Part shown: positions 2,233 through 20,525 of the stretch, piece by piece
Layout of the letters: each line of letters opens with the position of its first letter
Position numbering within the stretch: position 1 is the stretch's first letter
Assembly (NCBI GenBank): GCA_021323755.1
Contig: JAJPKJ010000072.1
Span: forward strand, 1 to 38,482
From: Chitinophagales bacterium
GTDB taxonomy: Bacteria; Bacteroidota; Bacteroidia; Chitinophagales; Chitinophagaceae
DNA: 38,482 bases
Direction: 5' to 3'
Notes under the pieces: generated by a model
Database searches by the model: none
What the model was told of the DNA's origin: nothing
The model's input: only the letters and a program-made list of their open reading frames with translations
Translations under genes and position numbers: made by a program

Positions 2233-2266
2233 CTTTCTTACTCACGCATTACATCAAAAAATCTGC

Positions 2267-2278
2267 TGATAAAAATCA
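2267..2278 (+). promoter_or_regulatory. Crp/Fnr-type box upstream of hemN
   Basis: The palindrome TGATAAAAATCA fits TGA-N6-TCA. Its centre is 63.5 bp before the ATG at 2336. A degenerate copy keeping only the TCA half lies 22 bp upstream (2245-2256) and another with one mismatch (TGTGGATGATCA) lies 22 bp downstream (2289-2300). A -7 element 33 bp on (2302-2309) is poor, so this is the weakest promoter of the set in that respect. Confidence 0.6.
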
Positions 2279-2335
2279 TATCCGTCTGTGTGGATGATCA
2301 TATCCATTGAAATGAAAAACCCGGATTTTCGTATC

Positions 2336-3709
2336 ATGCATACTGACATTTCCAGAAGGCTTATTGAGAAATACAATATTGCCGTTCCGAGATACACCAG
2401 CTATCCAACAGTTCCGTTTTGGGAAGATGATTTGGATAAAATTGAATGGAAGGAAAATTTCAAAAAACAATTCAACCTGAATAATAAAAATAGGGGCATT
2501 AGCCTTTATATACACCTTCCTTTTTGCGAATCGCTCTGCACCTATTGCGGATGCAATAAAAAGATAACAAAAGACCATCGTCAGGAAGACAAGTACCTGG
2601 ATGCGGTGATCGGCGAATGGAAATTGTATCTGGCTCTCATGCCGGAAAAACCACTCATAAGAGAGCTTCATCTTGGTGGCGGCACGCCAACTTTTTTTTC
2701 TCCAAAAAATCTGGAACGACTATTAAAGACAATCTATGCGGATTCGATCATAGATCCAGAACACGAATTTAGTGTGGAAGGCCATCCCAATAATACGACG
2801 AGCGAACATCTGCAAACCTTAGCGGATTTGGGTTTTAAAAGGATCAGTTATGGGGTTCAGGATAATGACCCTGAAGTGCAGCGCATCATAAATCGGGTTC
2901 AGCCACTGGAAAATGTTAAAAATGCCACGCGGTTGGCAAGAGCAAAAGGATTCAGATCTGTTAATTTCGATTTGATTTATGGTTTGCCAAGACAAACATT
3001 GCAGAGCATGGAAAAAACCATACACCAAACACTGGAACTAAAACCTGACCGCATCGCATTTTACAGTTATGCGCATGTGCCCTGGACTAGTCGCGGACAA
3101 AGATTATTCAATGAAAAGGATCTGCCTGCTGCTGATTTAAAAATGCAATTGTATCTGTTGGCAAAGAAGATTTTTACAGACAATGGTTACATTGATATTG
3201 GCATGGATCATTTTGCATTGGCTTCAGATGATCTATACAAAGCGAAAATAAATGGATCGCTGCATCGAAACTTTATGGGCTACACCACCCAGCAAACTTC
3301 GATGTTACTTGGCCTGGGAGTATCGGCTATAAGCGATACCGGGACCGCATTTGCACAAAATCACAAGACCCTTCATGACTATTATGACAGCATCGCTCAC
3401 CATGAAATTGCGGTTACCAAAGGATTTTTTTTGAGCGAAGAAGACATTTCTTTCAAACATTATATTCTTGACATCAGTTGCACTGGAAATACAAAATTCA
3501 ACGAGGAAGATGTATTTGCCTTAAATCAATTCACTTTTAAAGAACTGAAAAAAATGGAGATCGATGGCTTGGTGAAATGGAACAAAAAAATGGTGAGTGT
3601 AACAGATGTCGGTCGTCATTTTATAAGGAATATCTGCAGCGCCTTTGACTTGCACATGTTAAGAAATACCGGATCATTTACAAAACCAATATATAGTAAG
3701 TCTGTTTAG
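2336..3709 (+). CDS. hemN: Oxygen-independent coproporphyrinogen III dehydrogenase
   Basis: This radical-SAM enzyme decarboxylates coproporphyrinogen III to protoporphyrinogen IX without oxygen, feeding haem to the cbb3 oxidase when oxygen is scarce. The cluster motif CxxxCxxC is C64/C68/C71 with the extra C73 typical of HemN (CESLCTYCGC). Other HemN hallmarks are PRYTSYPT at the N-terminus, LGGGTPTF, and the C-terminal HemN domain. Upstream in-frame starts exist (GTG 2288, ATG 2294, ATG 2312). ATG 2336 is preferred because it puts the start just before the conserved N-terminus, gives 457 aa like E. coli HemN, and leaves a 20-odd nt leader from the predicted TSS near 2314. The gene ends 8 bp from the convergent TauE/SafE-like gene. 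The function call is secure; the exact start is moderately sure. Confidence 0.95.
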   Translation: MHTDISRRLIEKYNIAVPRYTSYPTVPFWEDDLDKIEWKENFKKQFNLNNKNRGISLYIHLPFCESLCTYCGCNKKITKDHRQEDKYLDAVIGEWKLYLALMPEKPLIRELHLGGGTPTFFSPKNLERLLKTIYADSIIDPEHEFSVEGHPNNTTSEHLQTLADLGFKRISYGVQDNDPEVQRIINRVQPLENVKNATRLARAKGFRSVNFDLIYGLPRQTLQSMEKTIHQTLELKPDRIAFYSYAHVPWTSRGQRLFNEKDLPAADLKMQLYLLAKKIFTDNGYIDIGMDHFALASDDLYKAKINGSLHRNFMGYTTQQTSMLLGLGVSAISDTGTAFAQNHKTLHDYYDSIAHHEIAVTKGFFLSEEDISFKHYILDISCTGNTKFNEEDVFALNQFTFKELKKMEIDGLVKWNKKMVSVTDVGRHFIRNICSAFDLHMLRNTGSFTKPIYSKSV

Positions 3710-3717
3710 ACCGGAAT

Positions 3718-4443
3718 TCATTTTTTCAATTTGGTGTCCACGATACAGTGATAAACTGTTTTCTTCGCTGCATCAACTTTGGGGCTCAGATAAGGTATTC
3801 CCAATCCCATACCGCGAACGATTAGCATACACGCCATTACCATCATGACATACGGATAGGCCTTCCTTACTCTTTGGCGGATGTCCATGGTAATGAAATT
3901 TCCAAAAAAAGCAATGCTCCACATTACTGGCAATGTGCCCAGACCAAAAAACGCCATGAATAAAGCCCCTTTAAAGACATCACCTGTAGCTGTGGCGCCT
4001 GCCGTTGCCATGTATACAAATCCACAAGGCAGTAATCCATTTAATAAACCGATTGAAAATAAAGATGAATAATTCCGCTGAGAAAAAAGTCTTCCCAATC
4101 TTTCACGCAGCCTTCTCAACTGAATCAGCAGAAAATCGTTGCTTTTGAAAATGGTGATCTTTTTTGGCATGGTGATGAATACGATAATTAAAATACCAAG
4201 AATGATTGAAAGCCATTGCTGGTAACCAAAGAAAGCAACCGTTTTTCCAATACTGCCAAATACAAGTCCGAAAGCAGAATAGGTAACAATTCTGCCTAAA
4301 TTATACAAAAATGCCCCTGAGAATTTTCCCCAATAACTATCCTTTCTGAGTGGTAATGATAATGCCAATGGCCCACACATGCCTATGCAATGAAAGCTTC
4401 CAATGAAGCCCATAGCAATGGCGGTTAATAAGACAGGCATCAT
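3718..4443 (-). CDS. TauE/SafE (DsbD_2-like) membrane protein of the cbb3 operon
   Basis: A 241 aa inner-membrane protein with about six hydrophobic segments and the N-terminal motif FHCIGMCGP (H18, C19, C23), plus a second cysteine in LLPCGF. This pattern defines the family annotated as sulfite exporter TauE/SafE or cytochrome-biogenesis transmembrane region (PF13386-like). In Bacteroidota these genes often sit directly after ccoH. The conserved His/Cys suggests metal, probably copper, or thiol handling during oxidase assembly, but the transported species is not established and 'sulfite exporter' should not be taken literally. It is the last gene of the operon; its ATG is 2 bp beyond the ccoH stop, implying translational coupling. 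It is convergent with hemN. Confidence 0.85.
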   Translation of the reverse strand: MMPVLLTAIAMGFIGSFHCIGMCGPLALSLPLRKDSYWGKFSGAFLYNLGRIVTYSAFGLVFGSIGKTVAFFGYQQWLSIILGILIIVFITMPKKITIFKSNDFLLIQLRRLRERLGRLFSQRNYSSLFSIGLLNGLLPCGFVYMATAGATATGDVFKGALFMAFFGLGTLPVMWSIAFFGNFITMDIRQRVRKAYPYVMMVMACMLIVRGMGLGIPYLSPKVDAAKKTVYHCIVDTKLKK

Positions 4444-4444
4444 A

Positions 4445-4876
4445 TCAAATAATTATTCTTTTTTCAAAATAATAGGTGATGCCGTCGACTTTCCAGAAGA
4501 TATGCAATTCATTAAGTCCTCTATTGGCTGGCGTAATTGGCATCTTTAATAAAGTATCCTGCAGCGAGATAATTTGATTTACGTCTTTGTTTTCATCAGC
4601 AGGGCAATATAGTTCTGCCGTGCCAGTAATTTTCTTTCCTGAGAAGTCTTTTGGGAATTTTATCAATATCTGGTCGCTCTTTATTTCGTACCGGATATTT
4701 TCAGACAATGCATCCGCACGTTTTGTTTCATCTATCTGCTGCTGAAATTTTAATTCTTTCCCGTAATAATCTGTTGTTACCAGATCCATTTTTTGTGAAG
4801 ATGATTTAAAGACCAGGAACAATATTCCTGCTACAAAAATTATGTAAACAACCAGTATCCGATATCCCCAGTTCAT
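4445..4876 (-). CDS. ccoH: FixH/CcoH-family cbb3 oxidase assembly protein
   Basis: A 143 aa protein with one N-terminal transmembrane helix (about residues 5-24, ILVVYIIFVAGILFLVF) followed by an extracytoplasmic FixH-like beta domain. Recognisable family features are the KxDLVTxDYYGKEL stretch just after the membrane segment and the C-terminal GLNELHIFW. In proteobacteria CcoH/FixH is needed for assembly or stability of the cbb3 complex. It lies 14 bp after ccoG and 1 bp before the TauE/SafE-like gene in the same operon. Sequence conservation in this family is low, so the call rests on the combined topology, motif and position. Confidence 0.85.
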   Translation of the reverse strand: MNWGYRILVVYIIFVAGILFLVFKSSSQKMDLVTTDYYGKELKFQQQIDETKRADALSENIRYEIKSDQILIKFPKDFSGKKITGTAELYCPADENKDVNQIISLQDTLLKMPITPANRGLNELHIFWKVDGITYYFEKRIII

Positions 4877-4890
4877 AAAAAAATGTTTTG

Positions 4891-6390
4891 TTAGTTATAA
4901 ATCTCAGGTCCAATAAAATTGGCAGTGAATGTCTTTATCTTTTTATTCTTTTCATACATGCCGATCTTCAGTTCGGTCTTCCATCCTTTTATATCATTGC
5001 GGTTGAGCTTTACAAAGAATTGCAGGTGAGAATAATCTTCCTTCTTTACCATCATATTGCTGTTTCCAATGTATTCGATCTCGCCTTTGATATTTTCCAA
5101 TCGTAAAGTAAATGGAATGTCTTTGTGTGTTTTATTGGTCAGCTTTAGGTTGTATAGGTTGCTGATCCTCCCATCCGACAAAGAAGTATAGGTCATGCCT
5201 GCTGTTCGCATCAACCTTGCATCCAGGTCAGTTCGGCTTATTAATAAGAAACCAAGAAGAGATAATAACAATGAAAGAACAGCAATATATCCTTTTATCC
5301 TCGTTGTAAGTCTTAGTCGCACCCCCTTGGTTATACTGTTCTCTGATGCATATCTTATTAATCCGGCAGGTTTGTGAATACTCGTCATGATAGCATCGCA
5401 GGCATCGATACATGCCGTACAATTGATGCATTCCAGTTGTGTGCCATTTCTTATATCAATTCCTGTTGGGCAAACTCTGACACAAGCCATGCAATCAATG
5501 CAATCACCCTGTGTAGCATATGCTTCAAATTTTGCAGCTAAATCTTTACAGCCCCCATTGCCTTTACAATCGGTGCATTTGCAATCATCATCATTTTGAG
5601 CTGTTTTTTTTGATTGTTTGGCAAGCTTTCCTCTTGGCTCCCCACGTTTATGATCATATGCAACTACGATAGAATTTTTATCGAGCAGCACTCCCTGCAA
5701 TCTTCCATATGGACACACCACCAGGCAGGCCTGTTCTCTAAACCACCAATACACAAAGAAAAATACGGAAGTAAATACGAGAAGTGAAACCAGTGTGGCA
5801 ATATGCGCTCCTGGGTTCTTGACATATCCCAGGACCTGATCCATGCTAATAAGATAGGCCAAAAAGAAATTGGCAATCACGAACGATATCAAAAAAAATA
5901 TAGTGAACTTGAAAACTCTTTTTATGATTTTTTTCCGATCCCAAGGCTGTGCTCTTAGTTTTTTTTGCTGAGCTGCATCACCATCTATCCAGTATTCGAT
6001 TTTGCGAAAAACCATTTCCATGAAAATAGTTTGAGGACAGGCCCATCCGCAAAAAATACGGCCAAACACTACCGTGAACAAGATAATAAATACAACAAAA
6101 GTAAGCATGGCAATGCCAAAAATGAAGAAATCCTGCGGCCAAAAAATCATTCCAAAAATGATGAACTTACGATCCAGTATATTCAGCATGAACAAAGGCT
6201 CATCATTGACTTTTATGAAGGGAAGTGTAAAAAAAACGAATAGATAAAAAATACTGAACCAGGTACGCAGATTATAAAGCCTGCCCTGAGGTTTTTTTGG
6301 ATTAATATAATTCCTTCGCCCTTCCTTTGAAATGGTGGCAACAGAATCCCGGTAGGTCCCTTTTTTATCCAGAGCAATAACATCTCCCAT
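4891..6390 (-). CDS. ccoG: Cytochrome c oxidase accessory protein CcoG (polyferredoxin)
   Basis: A 499 aa membrane iron-sulfur protein required for cbb3 biogenesis, proposed in the family to reduce copper (Cu2+ to Cu+) for delivery to the oxidase. It has an N-terminal cytosolic stretch, about four helices, the CGWACPQTIFMEM motif typical of CcoG/RdxA, and a ferredoxin region around residues 260-350 containing CIDCMACVRVCP and CINCTACIDACD, consistent with two [4Fe-4S] clusters. A further helix (about 380-400) precedes an IgG-like C-terminal domain (FixG_C). Length is normal. An extra Cys-rich insertion (CKCTDCKGNGGCKD) precedes the first ferredoxin motif; this is seen in Bacteroidota homologues as far as I recall, but I cannot verify it here. 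It lies between ccoP and ccoH. Confidence 0.95.
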   Translation of the reverse strand: MGDVIALDKKGTYRDSVATISKEGRRNYINPKKPQGRLYNLRTWFSIFYLFVFFTLPFIKVNDEPLFMLNILDRKFIIFGMIFWPQDFFIFGIAMLTFVVFIILFTVVFGRIFCGWACPQTIFMEMVFRKIEYWIDGDAAQQKKLRAQPWDRKKIIKRVFKFTIFFLISFVIANFFLAYLISMDQVLGYVKNPGAHIATLVSLLVFTSVFFFVYWWFREQACLVVCPYGRLQGVLLDKNSIVVAYDHKRGEPRGKLAKQSKKTAQNDDDCKCTDCKGNGGCKDLAAKFEAYATQGDCIDCMACVRVCPTGIDIRNGTQLECINCTACIDACDAIMTSIHKPAGLIRYASENSITKGVRLRLTTRIKGYIAVLSLLLSLLGFLLISRTDLDARLMRTAGMTYTSLSDGRISNLYNLKLTNKTHKDIPFTLRLENIKGEIEYIGNSNMMVKKEDYSHLQFFVKLNRNDIKGWKTELKIGMYEKNKKIKTFTANFIGPEIYN

Positions 6391-6410
6391 AATATAATTT
6401 TCTTGAGGTA

Positions 6411-7640: not shown

Positions 7641-7651
7641 ACTGATTTGAT

Positions 7652-7843: not shown

Positions 7844-7846
7844 GAT

Positions 7847-9982
7847 TTATCTATTTATGGTTGCGGTTTTATTTTTTCCAATATCGACTCCCAGGCGTTG
7901 TATGTAAGCGATCAGGGCAATCACCTCTTTTTTGGGTGACACACGAATGCTGTCATTTAACAGGTTATCCGAAATTTGTTTTGCCTGATCATTCAAATCA
8001 TCCAATGCCCGGTTTTCATACCCCTTTTCATAAGGCACGCCTAATTTTCTCATCGCATTGATTTTCGCAGCCATCGTAGAAACATCAAGATCCTGCTCAA
8101 GCATGAAAGAATAAGAAGGCATGATTGACCCCTCACTCATCGAAGAGGGCTCGCGAAAATGACGGAAATGCCATCCATTGGTTTTTTTAAGATTGCCGGT
8201 TCCTTCTCTTGCCAAATCAGGGCCGATGCGTTTGCTTCCCCATTGGAAAGGATGATCATAGACGAATTCCCCTGCTTTGGAATATTCACCATAACGTTCT
8301 GTTTCGCTTCTGAAAGGACGAATCATTTGAGAATGGCAGGTATAACATCCTTCGCGAACATAAATATCGCGCCCTTCCAGTTCCAGTGGCGTGTATGGTT
8401 TTACACTGCTGATGGTTGGAATATTTGATTTGATCAAAAATGTCGGCACCAATTCAATAATGCCGCCAATCAGGATCACCACAAGGCTAATGATCATAAA
8501 TTTTACCGGACGCCTTTCAATCCAGCGATGCCAGTGTTCTCCCGGATGTTTCACGTAATTCTTTTCCAGCGGTGCGGCTTCTGCTTCCTCGTTGGGAACT
8601 AATTTTCCTGCTTTCGCCGTCTTGTAAATATTATATACCATGAATATTACACCGACCAAATACAATGTGCCGCCCAATGAGCGCATGGCATAAAATGGTT
8701 TCATGTAGGTGACCGTTTCAAGAAAGGTATATTTCAACTGACCTGATTCAGTAAATTGTTTCCACATGGAACTTTCCTGAAACCCTGCCCAGTACATCGG
8801 TATCGCATAAAACAAAATCCCCAGTGTTCCTAACCAGAAATGGACATTCGCCAATTTCTTTGAATACAAATCCGTTTTATAAATGCGGGGAATAAGCCAG
8901 TATAACACACCAAATGTCAGCATGCCATTCCAGCCTAAAGCGCCAATATGAACGTGTGCAATAATCCAATCTGTGTAATGACTAATCGCGCTCACACTTT
9001 TTAATGAAAGCATCGGTCCCTCGAATGTTGCCATACCATAAGCAGTTACGGCCACCACCATGAATTTTAGGATCACATCATCTCTTACTCTGTCCCAGGC
9101 ACCACGCAGCGTCAGTAATCCATTGATCATGCCCCCCCAACTTGGAAAAATGAGCATGAATGAAAAAACAATTCCCAATGATTGAGCCCAGTTAGGCAGC
9201 GCAGTATATAACAAATGATGCGGCCCGGCCCAGATGTATAAAAAGATCAGGGCCCAAAAATGAATGATAGAAAGACGATAAGAATATATCGGGCGGTTAG
9301 CAGCTTTGGGAAGAAAATAATACATCAATCCCAAGTATGGTGTGGTCAGAAAAAAAGCTACGGCATTATGACCGTACCACCATTGCACCAATGCATCCTG
9401 AACACCGGAATAAATGCTGTAACTCTTTAGCCATGTATAGGGCAATTCACCAGAACGTACGATGTGCAGGACGGCTACGGTAACAAATGTTGCTATATAG
9501 AACCAGATGGCAACGTACAAATGTTTTTCTCTTCTCTTGATGATCGTTCCGAACATATTCCATCCAAAAACAACCCAAATGATGGTAATTGCAATATCGA
9601 TTGGCCAAATCAATTCGGCATATTCTGCTCCCTGCGAAAGTCCAAGAGGAAGGGTAATAGCAGCGCCAACAATGATCAACTGCCAACCCCAGAAATGAAT
9701 CTTACTTAATGTATCACTGAACATTCTTGCCTTGCAAAGACGTTGCAAAGAATAATATACACCCATAAAAATACCATTGCCTACAAAGGCAAAAATCACG
9801 GCATTGGTATGCAATGGGCGTAATCTTCCAAAAGATCCATATTGGGTAATGTTCAGAGAAGGAAAAACCAATTGCAAGGCCACGAACAATCCGGCGAGCA
9901 TACCAACGACTCCCCAAACAATAGTAGCCACTGCAAAATTTTTTACTATTCTGTTGTCGTAATAGAATTTTTCTACCTGCAT
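7847..9982 (-). CDS. ccoNO: cbb3-type cytochrome c oxidase, fused subunits I and II (CcoN-CcoO)
   Basis: A 711 aa catalytic core. Residues 1-470 are CcoN with about 12 helices. Ligands are visible: H58 (RPLHTN, low-spin haem b), H205 in WWYGHN and H255/H256 in AGPHH (Cu_B), and H343/H345 in AHVHIG (haem b3 and b). Y203 just before H205 matches the position discussed for the active-site Tyr-His region, though in cbb3 enzymes the cross-linked Tyr comes from another helix. After a charged linker, residues about 500-711 are CcoO: one membrane anchor and a mono-haem cytochrome c with CYTCH (C546, C549, H550) and the CcoO signature SQMIRPFRSE. The N-O fusion is common in Bacteroidota. It reduces O2 to water with high affinity and conserves energy. 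It lies 7 bp after ccoS. Confidence 0.97.
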   Translation of the reverse strand: MQVEKFYYDNRIVKNFAVATIVWGVVGMLAGLFVALQLVFPSLNITQYGSFGRLRPLHTNAVIFAFVGNGIFMGVYYSLQRLCKARMFSDTLSKIHFWGWQLIIVGAAITLPLGLSQGAEYAELIWPIDIAITIIWVVFGWNMFGTIIKRREKHLYVAIWFYIATFVTVAVLHIVRSGELPYTWLKSYSIYSGVQDALVQWWYGHNAVAFFLTTPYLGLMYYFLPKAANRPIYSYRLSIIHFWALIFLYIWAGPHHLLYTALPNWAQSLGIVFSFMLIFPSWGGMINGLLTLRGAWDRVRDDVILKFMVVAVTAYGMATFEGPMLSLKSVSAISHYTDWIIAHVHIGALGWNGMLTFGVLYWLIPRIYKTDLYSKKLANVHFWLGTLGILFYAIPMYWAGFQESSMWKQFTESGQLKYTFLETVTYMKPFYAMRSLGGTLYLVGVIFMVYNIYKTAKAGKLVPNEEAEAAPLEKNYVKHPGEHWHRWIERRPVKFMIISLVVILIGGIIELVPTFLIKSNIPTISSVKPYTPLELEGRDIYVREGCYTCHSQMIRPFRSETERYGEYSKAGEFVYDHPFQWGSKRIGPDLAREGTGNLKKTNGWHFRHFREPSSMSEGSIMPSYSFMLEQDLDVSTMAAKINAMRKLGVPYEKGYENRALDDLNDQAKQISDNLLNDSIRVSPKKEVIALIAYIQRLGVDIGKNKTATINR

Positions 9983-10200: not shown

Positions 10201-10208
10201 TAAAAGTA
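10201..10208 (-). promoter_or_regulatory. -7 element of the ccoS operon promoter
   Basis: On the minus strand this reads TACTTTTA, one base from the Bacteroidota consensus TAnnTTTG. Its centre is exactly 33 bp downstream of the proximal Crp/Fnr box centre, which would place that box at -41.5. No good -33 element is visible, as expected for an activator-dependent promoter. Confidence 0.5.
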
Positions 10209-10231
10209 GCAGAAGAATTTTTTTTTGATAA

Positions 10232-10243
10232 TGATGTGCATCA
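10232..10243 (-). promoter_or_regulatory. Crp/Fnr-type box, proximal, ccoS operon
   Basis: TGATGTGCATCA is a perfect TGAT-N4-ATCA palindrome whose centre is 59.5 bp before the ccoS ATG. A second palindrome (10254-10265) lies exactly 22 bp further upstream. Position and form match an FNR/FixK-type class II activator site. Confidence 0.7.
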
Positions 10244-10251
10244 AATAAAAA

Positions 10252-10267
10252 GCTGATTGTAATCAGC
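10252..10267 (-). terminator. ccoI terminator hairpin that is also the distal Crp/Fnr-type box
   Basis: The inverted repeat GCTGATTGTAATCAGC, read on the minus strand after the ccoI stop, is followed by five T residues, like a short intrinsic terminator. Its core TGATTGTAATCA (10254-10265) is also a perfect TGA-N6-TCA box exactly 22 bp from the proximal ccoS box. Either or both roles are possible; the 22 bp spacing recurring elsewhere favours an operator role. Confidence 0.5.
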
Positions 10268-13588: not shown

Positions 13589-13621
13589 TGTCCTCGGATA
13601 CGTTAACGAGATAAACATCCC

Positions 13622-14059
13622 TTACTTTACTGCAATGGTTTTTGCAGTTACCTTTTTAGTTTCTTCTTTTTTGGGCAGCGTCATTTTCAAAATACCATTA
13701 TCATAGGTTGCCTCAATCTTTTCTGCATTTACTCCGTCCGGCAAAGTGAATGTGCGGGAAAAAGAAGAATAGTTATATTCTCTTCTTGTGTAATGTTCAT
13801 CCTTTTCATTCTTGCTTTCTTCTTTTTCAGCACTAAGTGTCATCAGGTTTCCTTCAACATGGATCTTAAAATCATCCTTCTTTAATCCGGGGACAGCAAG
13901 CGCGATTTTATAATCTTCCTTATTTTCTGTTACGTTCACTGCGGGTACTGAAAATGTCCTTTCAAACCTGTCATCAAATACTTCATTCCACGGACTGAAA
14001 AAATTATTGAAAACAGATGGCAGGAATTCATTTTTTCTGCTCAATGATTTCGTTGACAT
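13622..14059 (-). CDS. Small heat-shock protein, Hsp20/alpha-crystallin family
   Basis: A 145 aa ATP-independent holdase. The N-terminus is short and Phe-rich (FLPSVFNNFFSPW), the alpha-crystallin domain spans about residues 40-130 with PGLKKDDFKIHVEGN and the late motif ATYDNGILKMTLPK, and the tail is Lys-rich. The frame stays open upstream to 14167, but the start at 14059 is chosen because it is preceded by a strong AGGAGG four bases away and because the predicted -7 element at 14105-14112 puts the TSS near 14100, which excludes the longer form. The strong Shine-Dalgarno sequence is unusual in this window. A tandem Crp/Fnr-type array lies upstream, suggesting low-oxygen rather than only heat control. 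Confidence 0.95.
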   Translation of the reverse strand: MSTKSLSRKNEFLPSVFNNFFSPWNEVFDDRFERTFSVPAVNVTENKEDYKIALAVPGLKKDDFKIHVEGNLMTLSAEKEESKNEKDEHYTRREYNYSSFSRTFTLPDGVNAEKIEATYDNGILKMTLPKKEETKKVTAKTIAVK

Positions 14060-14061
14060 AT

Positions 14062-14070: not shown

Positions 14071-14104
14071 GTTTTTTATAATTATCTAAGTGTTTTTTAC
14101 GGTA

Positions 14105-14112
14105 CAAATGTA
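14105..14112 (-). promoter_or_regulatory. -7 element of the hsp20 promoter
   Basis: TACATTTG on the minus strand is an exact match to TAnnTTTG. Its centre is 33 bp from the centre of the degenerate proximal box at 14136-14147; TSS is predicted near 14100, giving a leader of about 41 nt. Confidence 0.6.
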
Positions 14113-14135
14113 TCCTGGGCGAACCGCCAAATAAA

Positions 14136-14169
14136 GAACGACGGTCATGCTGAAAGATGAGTTTCATCA
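14136..14169 (-). promoter_or_regulatory. Tandem Crp/Fnr-type boxes, hsp20 promoter
   Basis: The distal box 14158-14169 (TGAGTTTCATCA) is a full TGA-N6-TCA, located inside the end of the neighbouring usp gene. Exactly 22 bp closer to hsp20 is a degenerate copy, 14136-14147 (GAACGACGGTCA), retaining one half-site. The geometry is the same as in the other arrays. Confidence 0.5.
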
Positions 14170-15089
14170 GTATGCCTCATCTTCTTTTTGTCTTCGCCGT
14201 TTCCCTTGAATTTATTGGTTGAATCGGGGCGATCACCCATTTCAATGTGATTGCTGTTCTGCTTTGCATTAGTTGCAAAAACAGATAATACGGGGACTTG
14301 TGAATGAAGAATGATCTGTTTGGAATTACTTTTTCTGAATAATGATTCCAGAAAACCATGATTCTCCGGAATAACAATCAGTAAATCTGGTTTATTTTCT
14401 GCAATGAAACTGTTGATGCCTTCGTCCACTCCTTTTTCATACCTGAAATAAAACTTAGGTGAAAATTCTGCAAGGTTATCCTGTAAAGTCTTAATACCGC
14501 CTCCAATTTCACTTTGACCATTCTCCTCTTTTCTTACATGGATGATATCCGGCGAGACCCCAAAAGCGTTGAGCCATTCTTTTGTAAATAATAAGGATAT
14601 ATCTTTTTCTTCGCTATCCAGATCAGAAGCTATCGCAATACTTTTTATTTTTTTAAAAGATACATCTTCCGGAACGATCAGAACCGGGTATAATGAATGA
14701 TGAATGAGCTTTAGCATATTACTCCCCATAAAGAATCTTTTTGCGTTGTTGTTTTTAAAGCCCATGATAATAGCAAATGGTTTTTTCCGGTAACTTAATT
14801 TTTCTATTTCAAATTCAACTGTCCCGTATTGAATCTCTGAATGTATATTTATTTTATTTTTTGTTCTGGCTATCAGTTTTTTCTGCAAATCATCCATATT
14901 TGATCGTTCGATGCTTTCAATTTCATTATATTCAAATTCCGTCATTGGCACCTGAAATGGGGTTGCCGGGATCTCAATAACATGAACCAAAATAAGATCT
15001 GTTCTTAAGAACATGGCAATGTCTGCGGCATAATTTGCTGCATTCTGAGAGGCTGGTGAAAAATCTGTGGCGACAATTATCGGTTTCAT
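14145..15089 (-). CDS. Universal stress protein, two tandem Usp domains
   Basis: A 314 aa cytosolic protein. The first UspA domain (about 1-145) starts with MKPIIVATDFSPAS and ends with the family GSNMLKLIHHSLYPVLIV; the second (about 150-285) is more diverged and ends in KQIILHSQVPVLSV. The last 30 residues are a hydrophilic tail. The ORF can be extended to 15170, but that start lies upstream of the predicted TSS (about 15103) and before the family N-terminus, so ATG 15089 is used. The role is inferred from the family: survival under starvation or respiratory stress. It is divergent from the flavin-binding-like gene at 15268, each with its own Crp/Fnr pair. Confidence 0.9.
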   Translation of the reverse strand: MKPIIVATDFSPASQNAANYAADIAMFLRTDLILVHVIEIPATPFQVPMTEFEYNEIESIERSNMDDLQKKLIARTKNKINIHSEIQYGTVEFEIEKLSYRKKPFAIIMGFKNNNAKRFFMGSNMLKLIHHSLYPVLIVPEDVSFKKIKSIAIASDLDSEEKDISLLFTKEWLNAFGVSPDIIHVRKEENGQSEIGGGIKTLQDNLAEFSPKFYFRYEKGVDEGINSFIAENKPDLLIVIPENHGFLESLFRKSNSKQIILHSQVPVLSVFATNAKQNSNHIEMGDRPDSTNKFKGNGEDKKKMRHTDETHLSA

Positions 15090-15107
15090 AAAAATATTTT
15101 GATCTAT

Positions 15108-15115
15108 TGAAATTA
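15108..15115 (-). promoter_or_regulatory. -7-like element of the usp promoter
   Basis: TAATTTCA on the minus strand, a partial match to TAnnTTTG, centred exactly 33 bp from the proximal box centre at 15144.5. Predicted leader of 14 nt. Confidence 0.45.
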
Positions 15116-15138
15116 TATGCTCCAAATAGAGATAATGA

Positions 15139-15172
15139 TGATGCCGGTCAACCTCACTCATGATAATCATCA
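15139..15172 (-). promoter_or_regulatory. Tandem Crp/Fnr-type boxes, usp promoter
   Basis: Two full TGA-N6-TCA palindromes: 15139-15150 (TGATGCCGGTCA) and 15161-15172 (TGATAATCATCA), exactly 22 bp apart. The proximal centre is 55.5 bp from the ATG at 15089. Confidence 0.7.
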
Positions 15173-15186
15173 GTTAATTTGAGCGA

Positions 15187-15220
15187 TGATAAAAGTCATA
15201 ACTATAAATGAGCATTGTCA
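15187..15220 (+). promoter_or_regulatory. Tandem Crp/Fnr-type boxes, promoter of the 15268 operon
   Basis: Two full TGA-N6-TCA palindromes: 15187-15198 (TGATAAAAGTCA) and 15209-15220 (TGAGCATTGTCA), again exactly 22 bp apart. The proximal centre is 53.5 bp before the ATG. This pair is offset 26 bp from the divergent pair, so it appears to be a separate array. Confidence 0.7.
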
Positions 15221-15243
15221 GTAAAAGCAGATTCACTGACCTA

Positions 15244-15251
15244 TAGATTTA
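15244..15251 (+). promoter_or_regulatory. -7 element of the 15268 operon
   Basis: TAGATTTA, one base from TAnnTTTG, centred exactly 33 bp after the proximal box centre. Predicted TSS about 15256, a 12 nt leader. Confidence 0.5.
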
Positions 15252-15267
15252 CACGAAACAAAAAATT

Positions 15268-15750
15268 ATGTTTGGAAGCTTAACCAATAAAGAAATTGAG
15301 GAATTGCTAAAAAGACAATTCCTTGGACGCATCGGTTGTCATACAGATGATCTGACATATGTAGTGCCTATCAGCTATGCTTATGACGGTGAAAATATCT
15401 ATTGCCATACGCACGAAGGGATGAAGACAAAAATGATGAGGAAAAACCCCAACCTGTGTTTTGAGGTAGATTCGCTGGAAAATATGGCAACATGGAAAAG
15501 TGTCATCGCCTGGGGAAAATTTGAGGAAGTGACAGAGGAAGCCGAACGCGCAAAGGCATTAAGAGTCTTATTAAGTCGGGTATATCCTTTTATTAGTTCT
15601 AAAAAGATGCACCTGGGAGAACAATGGCCATTTGTGCCGGATGATCTGAATTCTATTAAAGGAATTGTGTTTAAGATCAAGTTGACAGAAAAAACAGGAC
15701 GATACGAAGTGAACGATGAACCCTGGTACTATAATAATATTAAAGGATGA
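15268..15750 (+). CDS. Pyridoxamine 5'-phosphate oxidase-like flavin-binding protein
   Basis: A 160 aa protein of the PNPOx-like split-barrel family, the branch that includes nitroimidazole-resistance (NimA-like) proteins. Supporting segments are FLGRIGCHTDDLTYVVPISYAY at the N-terminus, HTHEGMKTKMMRKNPNLCFEVD in the barrel, WKSVIAWGKFEEV, and a C-terminal GIVFKIKLTEKTGRYE. Members bind FMN, F420 or haem; the cofactor cannot be read from sequence alone. The product is cytosolic. It starts an operon with the SulP transporter (23 bp gap) and has a tandem Crp/Fnr promoter, so it is probably a low-oxygen or redox-stress gene. Confidence 0.9.
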   Translation: MFGSLTNKEIEELLKRQFLGRIGCHTDDLTYVVPISYAYDGENIYCHTHEGMKTKMMRKNPNLCFEVDSLENMATWKSVIAWGKFEEVTEEAERAKALRVLLSRVYPFISSKKMHLGEQWPFVPDDLNSIKGIVFKIKLTEKTGRYEVNDEPWYYNNIKG

Positions 15751-15773
15751 TTCTTAAATAAGCTTATTCAAAT

Positions 15774-17333
15774 ATGATCCTATCAAAAAGAAAAGCACGA
15801 TATTTCTTTTTATCTTTTATTAAATATGATTTCAGAGCCAGTATCACGGTTTTCTTTGTTGCCTTGCCACTTTGCCTGGGCGTCGCCCTGGCTTCCAATG
15901 CCCCCGTTTATTCCGGACTAATCGCCGGTATTATCGGTGGACTCCTTGTTTCAATAATAAGCAAATCAGAATTGAGTGTTAGTGGACCGGCTGCAGGTCT
16001 TACGGCAATATGCGCGGCTGCCATTGCGCATCTTGGTTCCCTGGAAGTATTTTTTTTATCCGTATCCGTCGCTGGTCTGCTGCAAATAATTTTAGGCGCT
16101 TTTCGCCTCGGCAGCTTCACGCATTTCATACCATCATCTGTTATTAAAGGGATGCTCGTGGCAATTGGTATAATCCTGATCTCAAAACAGATTCCGCCCT
16201 TAATTGGCTACGATAAGCCTGAGTTCTGGTCAAATGAATTATTCAACATCATTACCTTAAATCATGTCTTCAGCAATGTGCACAGCTTATCTGATCACCT
16301 CAGCTATGGTACTATAATTATCGCTTTGCTTTCTGTTTTTGTTTTAATGTTATGGAAAAGATTTTTTGCCCTCAAATTTAATTTTCTTCCTACATCCTTT
16401 ATTGTAGTGTTGTTTGGAGCCGCCCTCGCTATATTGTTCAATGCTTATTTTCCGGTTCTTGCTTTAAGACCCACACAATTTGTGAATATTCCGGCGCATG
16501 TTTTTTCACAGTTGAAATCCCCTGATTTTAAATCGCTGTTCAGCACCACTGAAATATGGAGAAATGGAGTTGTTATTTGCTTTGTAGCAACACTCGAAAC
16601 ATTATTAAGTATTACTGCCATTGACAAGCTCGATCCATATAATCGCATATCGCCACAAAACCGTGAGCTGGTTGCCCAGGGGACTGGAAATTTCTTGAGC
16701 GGCTTATTAGGTGGGCTTCCGATCACTGCAGTTATTGTTCGGAGCTCTGCCAATGCGGAGGCAGGAGCAAAAACAAAACTTTCAACTTTTACTCACGGGC
16801 TTTGGCTTTTGCTTTCTATTCTGTTTGCTGTTCCCTTAATCAACCATATTCCCTATTGCGTTCTTGCTGTTGTCCTTATCCGTACAGGTTATAATCTTGC
16901 GAAACCAAAAATGATCTTTGCCGTGTACAAACAAGGCAGAGAGCAATTTCTTCCCTTTATTGTAACGGTTGTAGCTATTTTGTTTACAGACCTGCTTATT
17001 GGTGTGCTCATTGGCATTGGATATGCTATCTATTTTTTGATAAAACATACCTACCGCGCAGGTTTTACCATCAAGGAAAAAGAGATCAGAGAAGTAAAAT
17101 ATGTTTGGATTGAACTTGCACTCAACGTAAGTTTTTTGAACAAGAAACGATTTATTGAAATGCTTGACAATCTACCCGAATATTCTGTTGTTGAGATCAA
17201 TGGCGCAGATAGTGTTTACATTGACCGGGATATCCTGGAAATATTTCACGATTATAAATCAAAAGCAAAACGAAAACACATTCAACTGATACTAAAAGAT
17301 ATTCCGGATGTAGAAACCATTGAACTGCATTAA
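15774..17333 (+). CDS. SulP-family inorganic anion transporter with STAS domain
   Basis: A 519 aa membrane protein. Family features include the N-terminal DFRASITVFFVALPLCLGVALA, the SVSGPAAGLTAI loop, and the domain-8 region ETLLSITAIDKLDP ... GGLPITAVIVRSSANAEAGA. About 12-14 helices end near residue 425 and a cytosolic STAS domain follows (about 440-515). Substrates in the family include sulfate, bicarbonate, chloride and other anions; no fused carbonic anhydrase is seen, so the substrate is open. It is the second gene of the operon begun at 15268 and therefore probably shares its Crp/Fnr-type control. Confidence 0.93.
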   Translation: MILSKRKARYFFLSFIKYDFRASITVFFVALPLCLGVALASNAPVYSGLIAGIIGGLLVSIISKSELSVSGPAAGLTAICAAAIAHLGSLEVFFLSVSVAGLLQIILGAFRLGSFTHFIPSSVIKGMLVAIGIILISKQIPPLIGYDKPEFWSNELFNIITLNHVFSNVHSLSDHLSYGTIIIALLSVFVLMLWKRFFALKFNFLPTSFIVVLFGAALAILFNAYFPVLALRPTQFVNIPAHVFSQLKSPDFKSLFSTTEIWRNGVVICFVATLETLLSITAIDKLDPYNRISPQNRELVAQGTGNFLSGLLGGLPITAVIVRSSANAEAGAKTKLSTFTHGLWLLLSILFAVPLINHIPYCVLAVVLIRTGYNLAKPKMIFAVYKQGREQFLPFIVTVVAILFTDLLIGVLIGIGYAIYFLIKHTYRAGFTIKEKEIREVKYVWIELALNVSFLNKKRFIEMLDNLPEYSVVEINGADSVYIDRDILEIFHDYKSKAKRKHIQLILKDIPDVETIELH

Positions 17334-17393
17334 TCAACCCCGCAGATGAAATTTCAAAATCTAAAATGGCTGCTTTTGTTTTAATTAATGGCG

Positions 17394-17427
17394 TGATATT
17401 AATCATACCTTACAGTAATCTCTGTCA
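17394..17427 (+). promoter_or_regulatory. Tandem Crp/Fnr-type boxes, alcohol dehydrogenase promoter
   Basis: The distal box 17394-17405 (TGATATTAATCA) is perfect. The proximal box 17416-17427 (TAATCTCTGTCA) has one mismatch. The spacing is exactly 22 bp and the proximal centre lies 54.5 bp before the ATG. Confidence 0.6.
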
Positions 17428-17450
17428 ATGAAAATGATTTCACAAGCAGA

Positions 17451-17458
17451 TATTTTGC
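17451..17458 (+). promoter_or_regulatory. -7-like element of the alcohol dehydrogenase promoter
   Basis: TATTTTGC, a partial match to TAnnTTTG, at exactly 33 bp from the proximal box centre. Predicted TSS about 17463, leader of 13 nt. Confidence 0.4.
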
Positions 17459-17475
17459 GCTCAAATTAAAACAAT

Positions 17476-18516
17476 ATGAAAGCATTAGTATATCACGGTC
17501 CGGGCAAGAAATCATGGGAAGAGAAACCGAAACCGACCATTCAGCAACCGACAGATGCATTGGTCCGCATTACCAAGACCACTATTTGCGGGACCGACCT
17601 GCATATTCTAAAAGGAGATGTGCCAGAAGTAATCGATGGGAGAATTCTTGGACATGAGGGAGTTGGCGTGATCGAAGAAACGGGAAACGCGGTGACCAGT
17701 TTTAAGAAAGGTGACCGGGTGATCATTTCCTGTATCACTTCTTGTGGCAAGTGTGATTACTGCAAGAAAGGGATGTACTCTCATTGTGAAAATGGCGGAT
17801 GGATATTAGGTCATTTGATCGATGGAACACAGGCAGAATATGTCAGGATTCCTCATGCAGATAATAGTTTGTATCACATTCCCCCAGGAAGTGATGAAGA
17901 GGCACTCGTAATGCTGAGCGATATTTTGCCTACGGGTTTTGAATGCGGAGTGCTTAACGGGAAAGTTCAACCGGGGAACACAGTTGCCATCGTTGGTTCC
18001 GGACCCATAGGGTTGGCATCCTTACTGACAGCACAATTTTATGCACCTGCTGAGATAATCATGATCGATCCGGATGATAATCGCCTGGAAGTTGCAAAAA
18101 AATTTGGCGCAACACAAACCATTAATAACAGTAAACAAAATGCAATAGAAAAAGTGAAACAACTCACCAGTGGGAAAGGGGTGGACACCGCCATTGAAGC
18201 GGTGGGGATTCCTGCAACATTTGAATTGTGTGAATTCATTGTTGCACCAGGCGGAGTTATTGCCAATATTGGTGTGCATGGAAAAAGCGCTGTACTTCAT
18301 TTGGAAACACTCTGGGCCCAAAATATTACCATCACTACAAGATTGGTCGACACCGTTACGACCCCGATGTTGCTCAAAACAATTCAATCCAAGAAATTGG
18401 ATTCAAAAAAACTCATTACACATAATTTCAAATTATCAGACATCATCAATGCGTATGAAACTTTCGGTAATGCTGCAAGAGAAAGAGCGTTGAAAGTTAT
18501 CCTGACCAATGAATAG
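17476..18516 (+). CDS. Zinc-dependent alcohol dehydrogenase (MDR superfamily)
   Basis: A 346 aa NAD(P)-dependent medium-chain dehydrogenase. Catalytic zinc ligands are C38 (TICGTD) and H60-E61 (GHEGVG). The structural zinc loop has four cysteines (CGKCDYCKKGMYSHC). The Rossmann motif is VGSGPIG, with an acidic end to beta-2 (MIDPDDNRL) that favours NAD over NADP. The closest overall type is the Tdh/ADH-like group (COG1063) acting on short alcohols or aldehydes; the substrate is not determined. A CoA-transferase gene follows 91 bp downstream, and the promoter carries tandem Crp/Fnr boxes. A fermentative role, recycling NADH when oxygen is limiting, is a reasonable inference. Confidence 0.93.
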   Translation: MKALVYHGPGKKSWEEKPKPTIQQPTDALVRITKTTICGTDLHILKGDVPEVIDGRILGHEGVGVIEETGNAVTSFKKGDRVIISCITSCGKCDYCKKGMYSHCENGGWILGHLIDGTQAEYVRIPHADNSLYHIPPGSDEEALVMLSDILPTGFECGVLNGKVQPGNTVAIVGSGPIGLASLLTAQFYAPAEIIMIDPDDNRLEVAKKFGATQTINNSKQNAIEKVKQLTSGKGVDTAIEAVGIPATFELCEFIVAPGGVIANIGVHGKSAVLHLETLWAQNITITTRLVDTVTTPMLLKTIQSKKLDSKKLITHNFKLSDIINAYETFGNAARERALKVILTNE

Positions 18517-18607
18517 AATTGATAGAAGAGAAATTTAATTTAGCATTTGCTGAAAAGAATCTCCATTAGATTGCGTGACTCTTTTCCCCTTTCATAAAAA
18601 GAAAACT

Positions 18608-19888
18608 ATGTATTCAACTATTGGCGATGCAGTAGGCATCATCGGATCAAATAGCAATATTTTTATACAAACCGCTGCTGCAGCACCACAGCGCCTCATT
18701 AATGCAATGACCAAAAGGGCCCGTGAATTGAATAATGTTACCATCTATGAGATGCATACAGAAGGCGATGCGCCTTATGCTGCCCGGGAATTTGAAGGTA
18801 TATTTAATGTCAATTGTTTTTTTATAGGCGCCAATCTCCGTAATGCAGTGCAAGAAGGAAGAGCACAATACATTCCTGTTTTTCTAAGTGAGATACCTTC
18901 GCTGTTCAGAAAAAAAGTTATTGAGATTGATTACGCGCTGATACATGTTTCCCCTCCGGATGCACATGGATATTGTTCACTTGGGGTATCTGTTGATATA
19001 GCGCCTGCTGTTTTGGAAACAGCAAAGCACATTATTGCACAAGTCAACCCCAATATGCCCAGAACCCATGGAAACGGATTTATTCATGTAAGTAAGATAG
19101 ATAGACTGGTAGAAGTGAATGATCCGATTCCCCAAGTGGAAATCGGGTCAGCCGATGAAGTTACCATCAAGATCGCAGAATATGTTGCCTCACTGATTGA
19201 GGATGGAGCAACGCTTCAAATGGGAATCGGCAATATTCCAAATGCAGTGCTAAGCATGCTTGGAGGACACAGAAAATTAGGGGTCCATACAGAGATGTTT
19301 TCCGACGGCGTGATCAATCTGATAGAACGCGGCGTGATTACCGGTGAATTGAAAAAGAAACATCCTCATAAAATTGTTTCCAGCTTCATGCTTGGCACAA
19401 AACGATTGTATGATTTTGTAAATGATAATCCGTTGATCGAAATGCTTGATATCGGGTATGTGAATGATACCCATGTGATCAGGCAAAATCCAAAAGTGAC
19501 CGCGATCAATAGCGCTATTGAAGTGGATATAACAGGTCAGATATGCGCAGATTCGATTGGTAATAAAATGTATTCAGGAGTCGGCGGCCAAATGGATTTC
19601 ATGCGCGGCGCTTCATTATCAGAAGGTGGCAAACCAATCATTGCGATGCCTTCAATAACTGCAAAAGGATTAAGCAAAATCGTGAGTTTTTTAAAGCCCG
19701 GCGCCGGCGTCACTACAACAAGAGCTCATGTTCATTATATCGTAACGGAATATGGTATCGCTTATTTATATGGAAAGAATTTGAAAGAACGTGCAGAATC
19801 GCTAATTAAAATAGCTCACCCCATTCACAGGGAAAAATTGGAAGAAGACGCATTTTCTCTTTTCAAAAAGAATGCTCCATTGATCTGA
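18608..19888 (+). CDS. Acetyl-CoA hydrolase / CoA-transferase (Cat1/Cat2 type)
   Basis: A 426 aa enzyme moving CoA between acyl-CoA and acetate or hydrolysing acetyl-CoA. Family motifs are SPPDAHGYCSLG, GATLQMGIGNIPNAV, the catalytic glutamate E229 in GVHTEMFSDGV, and GGQMDFMRGA plus VTEYGIAYL near the C-terminus. Length and motif set most resemble 4-hydroxybutyrate/acetate CoA-transferases, but the acyl substrate cannot be fixed from sequence. The reading frame also offers a GTG at 18575; ATG 18608 is chosen because MYSTIGDAV begins the family domain. It follows the alcohol dehydrogenase on the same strand. A weak box-like sequence (18551, one mismatch) has no matching -7, so it probably shares the upstream promoter. 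Confidence 0.9.
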   Translation: MYSTIGDAVGIIGSNSNIFIQTAAAAPQRLINAMTKRARELNNVTIYEMHTEGDAPYAAREFEGIFNVNCFFIGANLRNAVQEGRAQYIPVFLSEIPSLFRKKVIEIDYALIHVSPPDAHGYCSLGVSVDIAPAVLETAKHIIAQVNPNMPRTHGNGFIHVSKIDRLVEVNDPIPQVEIGSADEVTIKIAEYVASLIEDGATLQMGIGNIPNAVLSMLGGHRKLGVHTEMFSDGVINLIERGVITGELKKKHPHKIVSSFMLGTKRLYDFVNDNPLIEMLDIGYVNDTHVIRQNPKVTAINSAIEVDITGQICADSIGNKMYSGVGGQMDFMRGASLSEGGKPIIAMPSITAKGLSKIVSFLKPGAGVTTTRAHVHYIVTEYGIAYLYGKNLKERAESLIKIAHPIHREKLEEDAFSLFKKNAPLI

Positions 19889-19984
19889 GGCAGAAATTCC
19901 ATCCGTATTTCATTGCTGAATTTATAACACCGCAAAGTAATTTTTCTGATCAATCGCTGATCAACCACCAGAATAGTTGAATTT

Positions 19985-20014
19985 AAAAAAGCCGGAAGTG
20001 ATATCACTCCCGGC
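19985..20014 (-). terminator. Intrinsic terminator after the 20036 gene
   Basis: The hairpin 19991-20014 (GCCGG...CCGGC with an AGTGAT/ATCACT inner stem) is followed on the minus strand by six T residues. It is 22 bp after the stop of the leftward gene at 20036. It could also stop rightward read-through only weakly, as no T-run follows on the plus strand. Confidence 0.8.
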
Positions 20015-20035
20015 AATTGAACAGCAATCGCTATT

Positions 20036-20389
20036 TTATTTGATAATAAAACTCGCAACAACAACTGCAATATTTGTTAAGACGCCCAGAAAGAAAAACG
20101 GGATAGTATATTTTGTAGATAATGCAGCAAGATTAGTAATAACCACCAGTGCCAGAGATGCCATAGCAACAATGATGAGACCAAATGCTCCGCCATTTAT
20201 TAAGATAGCAGCCATCGTTAATGGGAAAAAAACGGCAGTCATCGATGTTACAGTGGCTCCCACCCATCCGATATGATGTTCCGCATCTTCTTTGGCAGCC
20301 CATTGAAAAAAGCGGGAAATAGCTGATTTCCTTCTGGCAGCCATGTGATACACATAAGCTGATTCCGGATTCCGGGTTATATATTCCAT
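20036..20389 (-). CDS. Small three-helix membrane protein, unknown function
   Basis: A 117 aa protein with a basic cytosolic N-terminus (YHMAARRKSAISRFF) and three hydrophobic segments, about residues 42-63, 67-87 and 94-117. ATG 20389 is preferred over 20410 because the predicted TSS is near 20403. I do not recognise a named family. It is divergent from a usp pair and has its own -7 at 33 bp from a Crp/Fnr box, so it should belong to the same response. Confidence 0.75.
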   Translation of the reverse strand: MEYITRNPESAYVYHMAARRKSAISRFFQWAAKEDAEHHIGWVGATVTSMTAVFFPLTMAAILINGGAFGLIIVAMASLALVVITNLAALSTKYTIPFFFLGVLTNIAVVVASFIIK

Positions 20390-20407
20390 AAAATTTATTT
20401 TAGGATA

Positions 20408-20415
20408 CAAAGATT
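20408..20415 (-). promoter_or_regulatory. -7-like element of the 20036 gene
   Basis: AATCTTTG on the minus strand, one base from TAnnTTTG, exactly 33 bp from the centre of the box at 20439-20450. Predicted leader of 14 nt. Confidence 0.45.
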
Positions 20416-20438
20416 GTGTTCAGGCAAAAAAAATTCTA

Positions 20439-20494
20439 TGATGGCAGTCACCGCAATAAATGATAATAATCATCACTGAATCAAACGTTGATCA
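20439..20494. promoter_or_regulatory. Crp/Fnr-type box array between divergent membrane-protein and usp genes
   Basis: Full palindromes lie at 20439-20450 (TGATGGCAGTCA) and 20461-20472 (TGATAATAATCA), 22 bp apart. A third, half-conserved copy lies at 20483-20494 (AAACGTTGATCA), again at 22 bp. The left box serves the leftward gene and the right, degenerate one is positioned for the rightward usp; the central box could act as distal site for both. Confidence 0.65.
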
Positions 20495-20517
20495 TTGATA
20501 AAGCTGAATTCATGAAA

Positions 20518-20525
20518 TACATTTG
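20518..20525 (+). promoter_or_regulatory. -7 element of the usp pair promoter
   Basis: TACATTTG, an exact TAnnTTTG match, centred exactly 33 bp after the degenerate box at 20483-20494. Predicted leader about 10 nt. Confidence 0.6.

Follow-up and report, generated by a model that had tools for sequence, protein, structure and literature searches.

Which protein reads the paired TGA-N6-TCA boxes that precede respiration and stress genes in a Chitinophagaceae contig, and to what signal does it respond? The window, meaning the whole stretch of DNA analyzed here, is the entire 38,482-base contig C9 (JAJPKJ010000072.1) of a Chitinophagales bacterium with a genome of 4.08 Mb in 75 contigs. An initial annotation of this stretch had described a Crp/Fnr-type regulon of eight promoters with class II spacing, in which mostly tandem boxes precede genes of respiration and stress; these features hold up, and the reading is supported overall. 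We consider it about 80% probable that a Crp-type activator uses the pairs as a dimer-of-dimers operator, placed at -41.5 and -63.5 in promoters that have TAnnTTTG as their -7 element, that the activator here and in most of the sampled family is a response regulator made of a receiver, a cNMP fold and a Crp-type helix-turn-helix (HTH), usually encoded beside a PAS histidine kinase, and that the genes concerned form a low-oxygen regulon.

Box pairs and promoter geometry

Single boxes were not enriched in the window, where 22 copies of TGA-N6-TCA were found against 18.06 ± 4.08 expected, and 20 of 100 shuffled sequences reached 22. The initial annotation had assumed one box per 4 kb by chance; the expectation here is about one per 2 kb, and the enrichment that it described applies to pairs and not to single boxes. 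The complete genome contained 17 exact pairs at a 22-bp period, compared with 1 for the reversed pattern. When gaps of 0 to 30 between the two boxes were considered, 44 pairs were found in total, 17 of them at gap 10 and 27 across the other 30 gaps (0.9 per gap). The reversed pattern gave only 4 pairs over all these gaps, which makes it a soft control, and we place more trust in the comparison between gaps. Four of the 17 pairs lie on the window contig and six inside 11 kb of contig C10, with the remaining ones on C8, C19, C20, C40, C46, and C62. Several further sites, accompanied by genes for PfkB, Usp, and a baeRF-family protein, were observed at the end of C62 (L021, C62:104000-117021), and it may be that C9, C10, and C62 derive from a single island.

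A model of two boxes plus the -7 element (18 specified bases, up to 3 mismatches) matched 41 places in the genome, compared with 5 for the reversed pattern. Two of these places had no mismatch, 8 had one, 13 had two, and 18 had three, and all eight promoters named in the initial annotation were among them. That annotation had made its interpretation depend on genome-wide enrichment of the two-box pattern, and the enrichment was found. The pattern also recurred in relatives, as judged from counts rather than from alignment of orthologous promoters one by one: the family sample of 147 genomes contained 780 exact pairs versus 20 for the reversed pattern, and 123 genomes had at least one. The paired-box observation is thereby confirmed. 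Triple arrays, with three boxes at the 22-bp period, were also seen (window:20439-20494, in which the third box is degenerate; G024:C6:776-831; G087:C5:324937-324992).

The flanks of 125 distinct pairs (249 oriented flanks) contained TAnnTTTG 49 times, and 34 of these occurrences fell at a single position, 23 nucleotides past the proximal box, so that the center of the 8-mer lies 33 bp from the center of that box. At least four of the six fixed -7 bases were present on one side of 92 of the 115 pairs outside long open reading frames (ORFs), and this score was reached by 98 of the 171 flanks directed toward a gene start versus 13 of the 59 directed toward none. The other 10 pairs were inside ORFs of at least 150 residues and may include chance pairs, with 9 of their 20 flanks still scoring at least 4/6. 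The geometry was also measured in a set of 135 loci (1.47 Mb) consisting of the window and C10, both known to carry pairs, 12 other stretches of the same genome, and 120 loci (40 regions and 80 loci) chosen for the regulator gene described below. The spacer between box and -7 element was 23 at 61 sites in this set and had 0 to 5 sites at each other value from 16 to 30. Sixty sites combined a box with a consensus -7 element; a second box with at least 5/6 letters stood at exactly -22 in 50 of them and a perfect one in 45, and other offsets from -14 to -36 gave 0 to 3. Throughout the family sample, two exact boxes with an exact -7 element were found 193 times versus 0 in the control.

In the transcription-start map of Flavobacterium psychrophilum, TAnnTTTG spans -12 to -5 according to a passage of PMC9723704, which would put the proximal box at -41.5 and the distal box at -63.5, positions predicted from the distance between box and -7 element. 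On that premise the activator box would lie where class II Crp/FNR promoters have it, at -41.5; these promoters differ from ours in that here a second dimer would sit exactly 22 bp upstream and the Bacteroidota -7 element replaces the -10 hexamer. The exact distance from box to -7 element, computed from sequence, is the basis of this predicted class II placement.

A receiver-Crp response regulator as candidate activator

The best candidate for the protein that binds the pairs is encoded in the window itself, at 1174-2232 on the plus strand. This product of 352 residues belongs to the Crp/Fnr superfamily (Pfam cNMP_binding, PF00027, E = 3.3e-19; HTH_Crp_2, PF13545, E = 5.1e-11) and also to the response regulators (Response_reg, PF00072, E = 1.4e-28), with the phospho-acceptor Asp kept and a kinase gene adjoining. 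It is not an iron-sulfur FNR, because residues 146 to 352, its cNMP and HTH part, contain no cysteine. The initial annotation had pointed to this protein as the binder, and co-occurrence and linkage favor it, now as a response regulator and not as a ligand-sensing FNR. Across 41 aligned regulators, the phospho-acceptor Asp and the recognition helix A(T/K)ES-x-(I/V)R (ATESLIR in the window protein) were present without exception, and cysteines after residue 120 numbered none in 29, one in 8, and two in 4. The gene upstream of the regulator had a kinase motif in 32 of 40 cases, and four more of these genes, which were not flagged, start with the same PAS-like sequence. Relatives were found in 108 of the 147 family genomes (E <= 1e-40), and close ones are encoded in, among others, Limnovirga soli, Segetibacter aerophilus, Ginsengibacter hankyongi, and Ferruginibacter. 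No NCBIfam model above its cut-off described the receiver-Crp family among the 25 of 105 matches listed.

A second receiver-cNMP-Crp protein is encoded on the minus strand of C10 (C10:36950-38017; L017:16950-18017). It is 41% identical to the window protein, has the helix SSENVFN instead of ATESLIR, and forms a long branch in the tree; perhaps it no longer binds the paired operator, or it partners the window protein.

The pairs followed the regulator across genomes. The 108 regulator-positive family genomes contained 732 pairs and the 39 negative ones 48, with at least three pairs in 85/108 versus 6/39, and 177 of the 193 full sites were in positive genomes versus 16 in negative ones. The P-values for this co-occurrence and for the comparisons that follow ignore the kinship of the genomes. 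Since family counts are not independent, a comparison within genera was made: in ten genera with one genome of each kind, the positive genome had more pairs in eight, the same number in one, and fewer in one. In genus g108, four positive genomes had 2, 2, 3, and 4 pairs, and nine of ten negative genomes had none, the tenth having one. In the class outside the family, as represented in a phylum sample of 247 genomes, 33 positive genomes contained 103 pairs and 20 negative genomes 5.

Pairs were also concentrated near the regulator gene. We used 40 regions surrounding this gene, each of at most 20 kb, one per genome and with the best regulator matches, a set that leaves out the genome of the window, G141, and second regulator copies. 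These regions contained 37 pairs versus 1.09 expected from each genome's own count, and 28 of them had at least one. Co-occurrence and linkage with the regulator gene are, like the operator grammar and the -7 geometry, direct results of computation.

The PAS kinase as candidate sensor

The gene before the regulator (3-1172, plus strand; Pfam PAS_9, HisKA, and HATPase_c) encodes a PAS histidine kinase, the candidate sensor, with its 5' end cut by the contig start. Compared with the PDB, its PAS domain matched heme-containing FixL chains best (E = 1.8e-12) and DosP next, and the equivalents of the two FixL residues that serve as heme-ligand His and distal Arg are both present. The column of the heme-ligand His contained histidine in 32/32 kinases, with L102, which is cut, doubtful; the distal Arg was present in 20/31.

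Stand-alone Crp/Fnr proteins in regulator-negative genomes

The search for stand-alone Crp/Fnr proteins covered eight regulator-negative family genomes, all taken from the 18 with pairs and none from the 21 without, and each of the eight has at least one full site of two boxes and -7 element. Seven of the eight encoded such a protein with nearly the same recognition helix, GTATE(S/T)-x-IRLLSE, and the eighth genome is 60% complete. In six of the seven proteins, the first 60 residues include 4 or 5 cysteines, an FNR-like cluster; the seventh, read from an internal start, had one. In a tree of 56 Crp cores, receiver fusions formed one group (support 90/72) and these stand-alone proteins another (support 97/93). 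Three loci of 3.6 kb (L302, L305, and L307, from G087, G080, and G066) each contain a 22-bp pair and a gene for a stand-alone Crp/Fnr protein with a cysteine-rich N-terminus; none of the three genomes has a receiver-fusion match.

The simplest reading of these observations is that two alternative inputs may act on the same operator, an FNR-like one-component protein or a kinase with a receiver-Crp regulator, and the FNR-like proteins of the negative genomes would be the best pointer to oxygen as the signal. They also argue that the Crp core, rather than the receiver, would be what pairing requires. Bridging between receivers as the origin of the 22-bp period is disfavored, because genomes with a stand-alone Crp/Fnr protein and no receiver-Crp match at E <= 1e-40 keep the pairs.

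Target genes and promoters of the window

Downstream proteins were collected from promoters with at least 4/6 -7 matches and a pair outside long ORFs, and 96 of 97 references were aligned, L021:8566-8865 being dropped. The resulting 96 proteins are a nonrandom sample from 12 family genomes (60 pair-bearing stretches, not drawn at random), the genome of the window, and the regulator regions. Fused cbb3 oxidase subunits (ccoNO) were the most frequent, with 12, followed by six P-type ATPases and five Rrf2 regulators; there were also three hemerythrin-type proteins, two with ScdA_N, three Usp, three baeRF, two HypA, two PEP (phosphoenolpyruvate)-utilizing dikinases, and two PNPOx-like proteins. 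The genes beside the pairs of C10 and C62 encode an Hsp20-like protein, Usp with a PLD protein, nitroreductase, PEP synthase, a holin-like protein, PfkB, and a baeRF-family protein followed by Usp.

The target set of the window comprises cbb3 oxidase, hemN, alcohol dehydrogenase with a coenzyme A (CoA) transferase, Usp, and Hsp20. Full pairs were present at the ccoS/ccoNO, usp15089, and PNPOx promoters and in the divergent region between the 20036 ORF and the usp pair, and the proximal box was degenerate in three of the eight promoters (hsp20, alcohol dehydrogenase, and usp pair). The -7 element that the initial annotation had centered 33 bp from the proximal box was found at exactly that distance in seven of the eight, with 4 to 6 of the six fixed bases; hemN had no good match there. 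The hemN and alcohol dehydrogenase promoters match the full model with three mismatches, the level at which chance matches are likeliest.

Before hemN, a full box at 2267-2278 (plus strand) is joined by a 5/6 box at 2289-2300, and the sequence at the expected -7 distance is ATCCATTG or GATTTTCG, neither convincing. The gene itself (2288-3709, plus strand) encodes the oxygen-independent coproporphyrinogen III oxidase (NCBIfam TIGR00538, above cut-off). The ccoS/ccoNO promoter (10201-10265, minus strand) has boxes at 10254-10265 and 10232-10243 and the -7 element TACTTTTA at 10201-10208, with one mismatch to the model; ccoNO (7847-9982, minus strand) encodes fused cbb3 oxidase subunits I and II (Pfam COX1 and FixO; NCBIfam NF011053, ccoN, and ccoO above cut-off). 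With two mismatches, the hsp20 promoter (14105-14169, minus strand) combines a box at 14158-14169 with a degenerate proximal box (4/6) at 14136-14147 and TACATTTG at 14105-14112. The hsp20 ORF (Pfam HSP20) reads from 14167 to 13622 on the minus strand, and the position of the -7 element suggests that a start near 14059 would fit the promoter better than 14167.

The usp promoter (15108-15172, minus strand; two mismatches) has boxes at 15161-15172 and 15139-15150 and TAATTTCA at 15108-15115, and belongs to the universal stress protein gene usp15089 (14145-15089, minus strand; Pfam Usp). The PNPOx/SulP promoter (15187-15251, plus strand; one mismatch) has boxes at 15187-15198 and 15209-15220 and TAGATTTA at 15244-15251, and precedes genes for a PNPOx-like protein (15268-15750) and a SulP permease (15774-17333), which together span 15268-17333 on the plus strand (Pfam Pyridox_ox_2 and Sulfate_transp). 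The alcohol dehydrogenase promoter (17394-17458, plus strand) consists of a box at 17394-17405, a 5/6 proximal box at 17416-17427, and TATTTTGC at 17451-17458; downstream, at 17476-19888 on the plus strand, are a zinc alcohol dehydrogenase (17476-18516) and an acetyl-CoA hydrolase/transferase read from 18608, both assigned by Pfam.

The small 20036 ORF, which matched no Pfam family at E <= 0.001, has a promoter on the minus strand (20408-20472; one mismatch) with boxes at 20461-20472 and 20439-20450 and AATCTTTG at 20408-20415. The box at 20461-20472 is also part of the usp-pair promoter (20461-20525, plus strand; two mismatches), in which a degenerate box (4/6) at 20483-20494 is followed by TACATTTG at 20518-20525. 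This third box is the one correctly distanced from the -7 element, and it completes the triple array that begins at 20439. Two Usp-like proteins follow (20540-22220, plus strand): the product of 20540-21358 is above the Pfam Usp cut-off, and that of 21396-22220 scored 22.9 bits, below the cut-off of 24. Elsewhere in the window, an ORF of 2,914 residues on the minus strand (window:23799-32543) contains a glucoamylase domain with GH94 supersandwich and catalytic domains, and is presumably of the cyclic beta-glucan synthetase kind.

Discussion

In the mechanism that we propose, low oxygen would cause the FixL-like heme PAS kinase to phosphorylate the receiver, and the regulator would then occupy two neighboring sites on the same helix face. 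The dimer nearer the promoter would touch RNA polymerase as class II activators do, turning on the genes for cbb3 oxidase, heme synthesis, fermentation, and the stress response. Binding, phosphorylation, heme, oxygen as the signal, and activation rather than repression are what we infer here, and the fixed 22-bp spacing by itself suggests cooperativity between the dimers.

Several observations weigh against this explanation. Pairs occur in 18 of the 39 negative family genomes (six of them with three or more), 11 of the 39 carry one or more full sites of two boxes and -7 element, and the within-genus comparison includes a negative genome, G120, that is only 78% complete. Conversely, 3 of the 108 positive family genomes lack any pair, and no exact pair was found in 10 of the 33 positive genomes outside the family, despite a kept E-x3-R helix (G196, G245, G249, G260, G271, G275, G322, G338, G366, and G374); in these ten, the operator may have drifted or be single. 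Outside the class, 90 pairs were counted in 186 genomes, or 0.48 each, which we took as background. A pair ahead of the kinase/regulator operon itself is rare (4/40), so autoregulation as a general rule is weak. In 11 of the 31 kinases, the position of the distal Arg holds M, L, K, or Y instead. Finally, sites with one box and an exact -7 element number 802 family-wide (control, 109) and outnumber the 193 full sites; therefore, other Crp/Fnr proteins probably use -41.5 too, and single-box promoters at the same distance, which exist, probably belong to them.

The alternative that survives best is that the regulon answers, through the PAS kinase, a cue other than oxygen, such as redox or quinone state, nitric oxide, or starvation. 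The Usp, Hsp20, PEP synthase, and PfkB genes beside pairs would suit stationary phase or general stress, the hemerythrin and ScdA proteins would suit nitric oxide, and the distal Arg is not universal; against these points stand the cbb3 oxidase as the commonest target (12/96), heme oxygen sensors as the best PAS matches, and the FNR-like cysteines of most alternative regulators, and we consider such a cue unlikely. It is rather improbable that activation depends on the proximal box alone, with the distal box used by another protein or for fine-tuning: many family sites do combine one exact box and a -7 element with no exact second box, but 50 of the 60 sites in the geometry set, whose loci were mostly chosen for receiver-Crp genes, have the second box at exactly -22.

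We also regard it as improbable that the pairs are bound by a different stand-alone Crp/Fnr protein encoded in this genome, the receiver-Crp gene being a mere neighbor of the regulon. Crp-type HTH matches do occur on C64, C53, and, weakly, C73, single-box sites outnumber pairs, and in seven regulator-negative genomes pairs persist alongside a stand-alone Crp/Fnr protein. However, the helices of the C64 and C53 proteins (SSRQTVTT and TARVVVSR) lack E-x3-R, and the pairs follow the receiver-Crp protein within genera and cluster near its gene. The C64 protein was rejected as the binder since its type occurs in only 13/147 genomes (E <= 1e-40), and the C53 protein was judged on its different helix and not on its distribution. 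Chance or base composition, to which the unenriched single boxes and the soft reversed-pattern control (44 versus 4) might point, was ruled out to a negligible residue by the single sharp gap (17 pairs versus 0.9), the single sharp -7 distance, and the rarity of pairs in class genomes without the regulator.

The proposed system resembles the FixL-FixJ-FixK cascade of Alphaproteobacteria. FixJ is a receiver with a LuxR/GerE-type output, FixK acts at a single site near -40.5, and hemN and the cco-linked ATPase are FixK targets. The window protein was rejected as a FixJ, its output being HTH_Crp_2; the FixJ and FixK steps would here lie in one protein, in which a Crp output is joined to a receiver. 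Unlike the operator of FixK, the one found here is a pair at a 22-bp period. A passage of PMC4999443 describes FixLJ as activating fixK, FixK as lacking an iron-sulfur cluster, and cco as being among the targets; the likeness extends to a FixL-like PAS kinase, a Crp/Fnr output without iron-sulfur cysteines, and a cbb3 target.

In FNR-type regulators, the E-x3-R helix reads the TGA-N6-TCA core, and both are found here, the stand-alone proteins of seven of the eight negatives tested having nearly the same helix. FNR-type proteins carry a [4Fe-4S] cluster, for which they have a group of N-terminal cysteines and a central one, whereas the window protein has a receiver and no cysteine in its cNMP/HTH part. 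DosR (DevR) of mycobacteria is a two-component system with a LuxR-type output; here, a two-component system is only proposed. Membership in the DosR regulon was rejected: the boxes and the output, which is of the Crp type, are different, and the resemblance is limited to gene lists and function, with no claim of homology. The genes shared are those for Usp, Hsp20, nitroreductase, and PfkB, all preceded by pairs here, and a passage of PMC5309233 lists Usp, alpha-crystallin, nitroreductases, and PfkB among DosR genes.

Among the matches listed from the open-access literature, titles and abstract openings mentioned neither a paired 22-bp Crp/Fnr operator nor a receiver-Crp regulator in Bacteroidota. 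The cyclic di-GMP-binding CRP/FNR proteins of PMC8547461 were set aside as a receiver-Crp case, since the passage concerned describes them as having a cNMP and an HTH domain, and a passage of PMC8510549 connects MalR with Crp homologues from bins of Ignavibacteria, Flavobacteriales, and Saprospiraceae.

A broader proposal, for which we see the chances as evenly balanced, is that an operator for two Crp-core dimers at -41.5 and -63.5 is read in Bacteroidota by either of two evolutionarily interchangeable oxygen inputs and that the hypoxia and dormancy program converged with that of DosR. One input would be an FNR-like one-component protein; the other would be a heme-PAS kinase together with a receiver-Crp regulator that unites FixJ and FixK. 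Contacts between Crp cores would then account for the 22-bp pairing, since pairs are kept in genomes in which no receiver fusion was found. The paired boxes and the two-component regulator are probably a shared switch for low-oxygen life. If so, a large environmental group would have a testable oxygen-response regulon, the receiver-Crp family, which has no name of its own, would gain a function, and the operator would provide a case of sensor exchange on a fixed site. The exact geometry would also make promoters and start sites predictable in many genomes.

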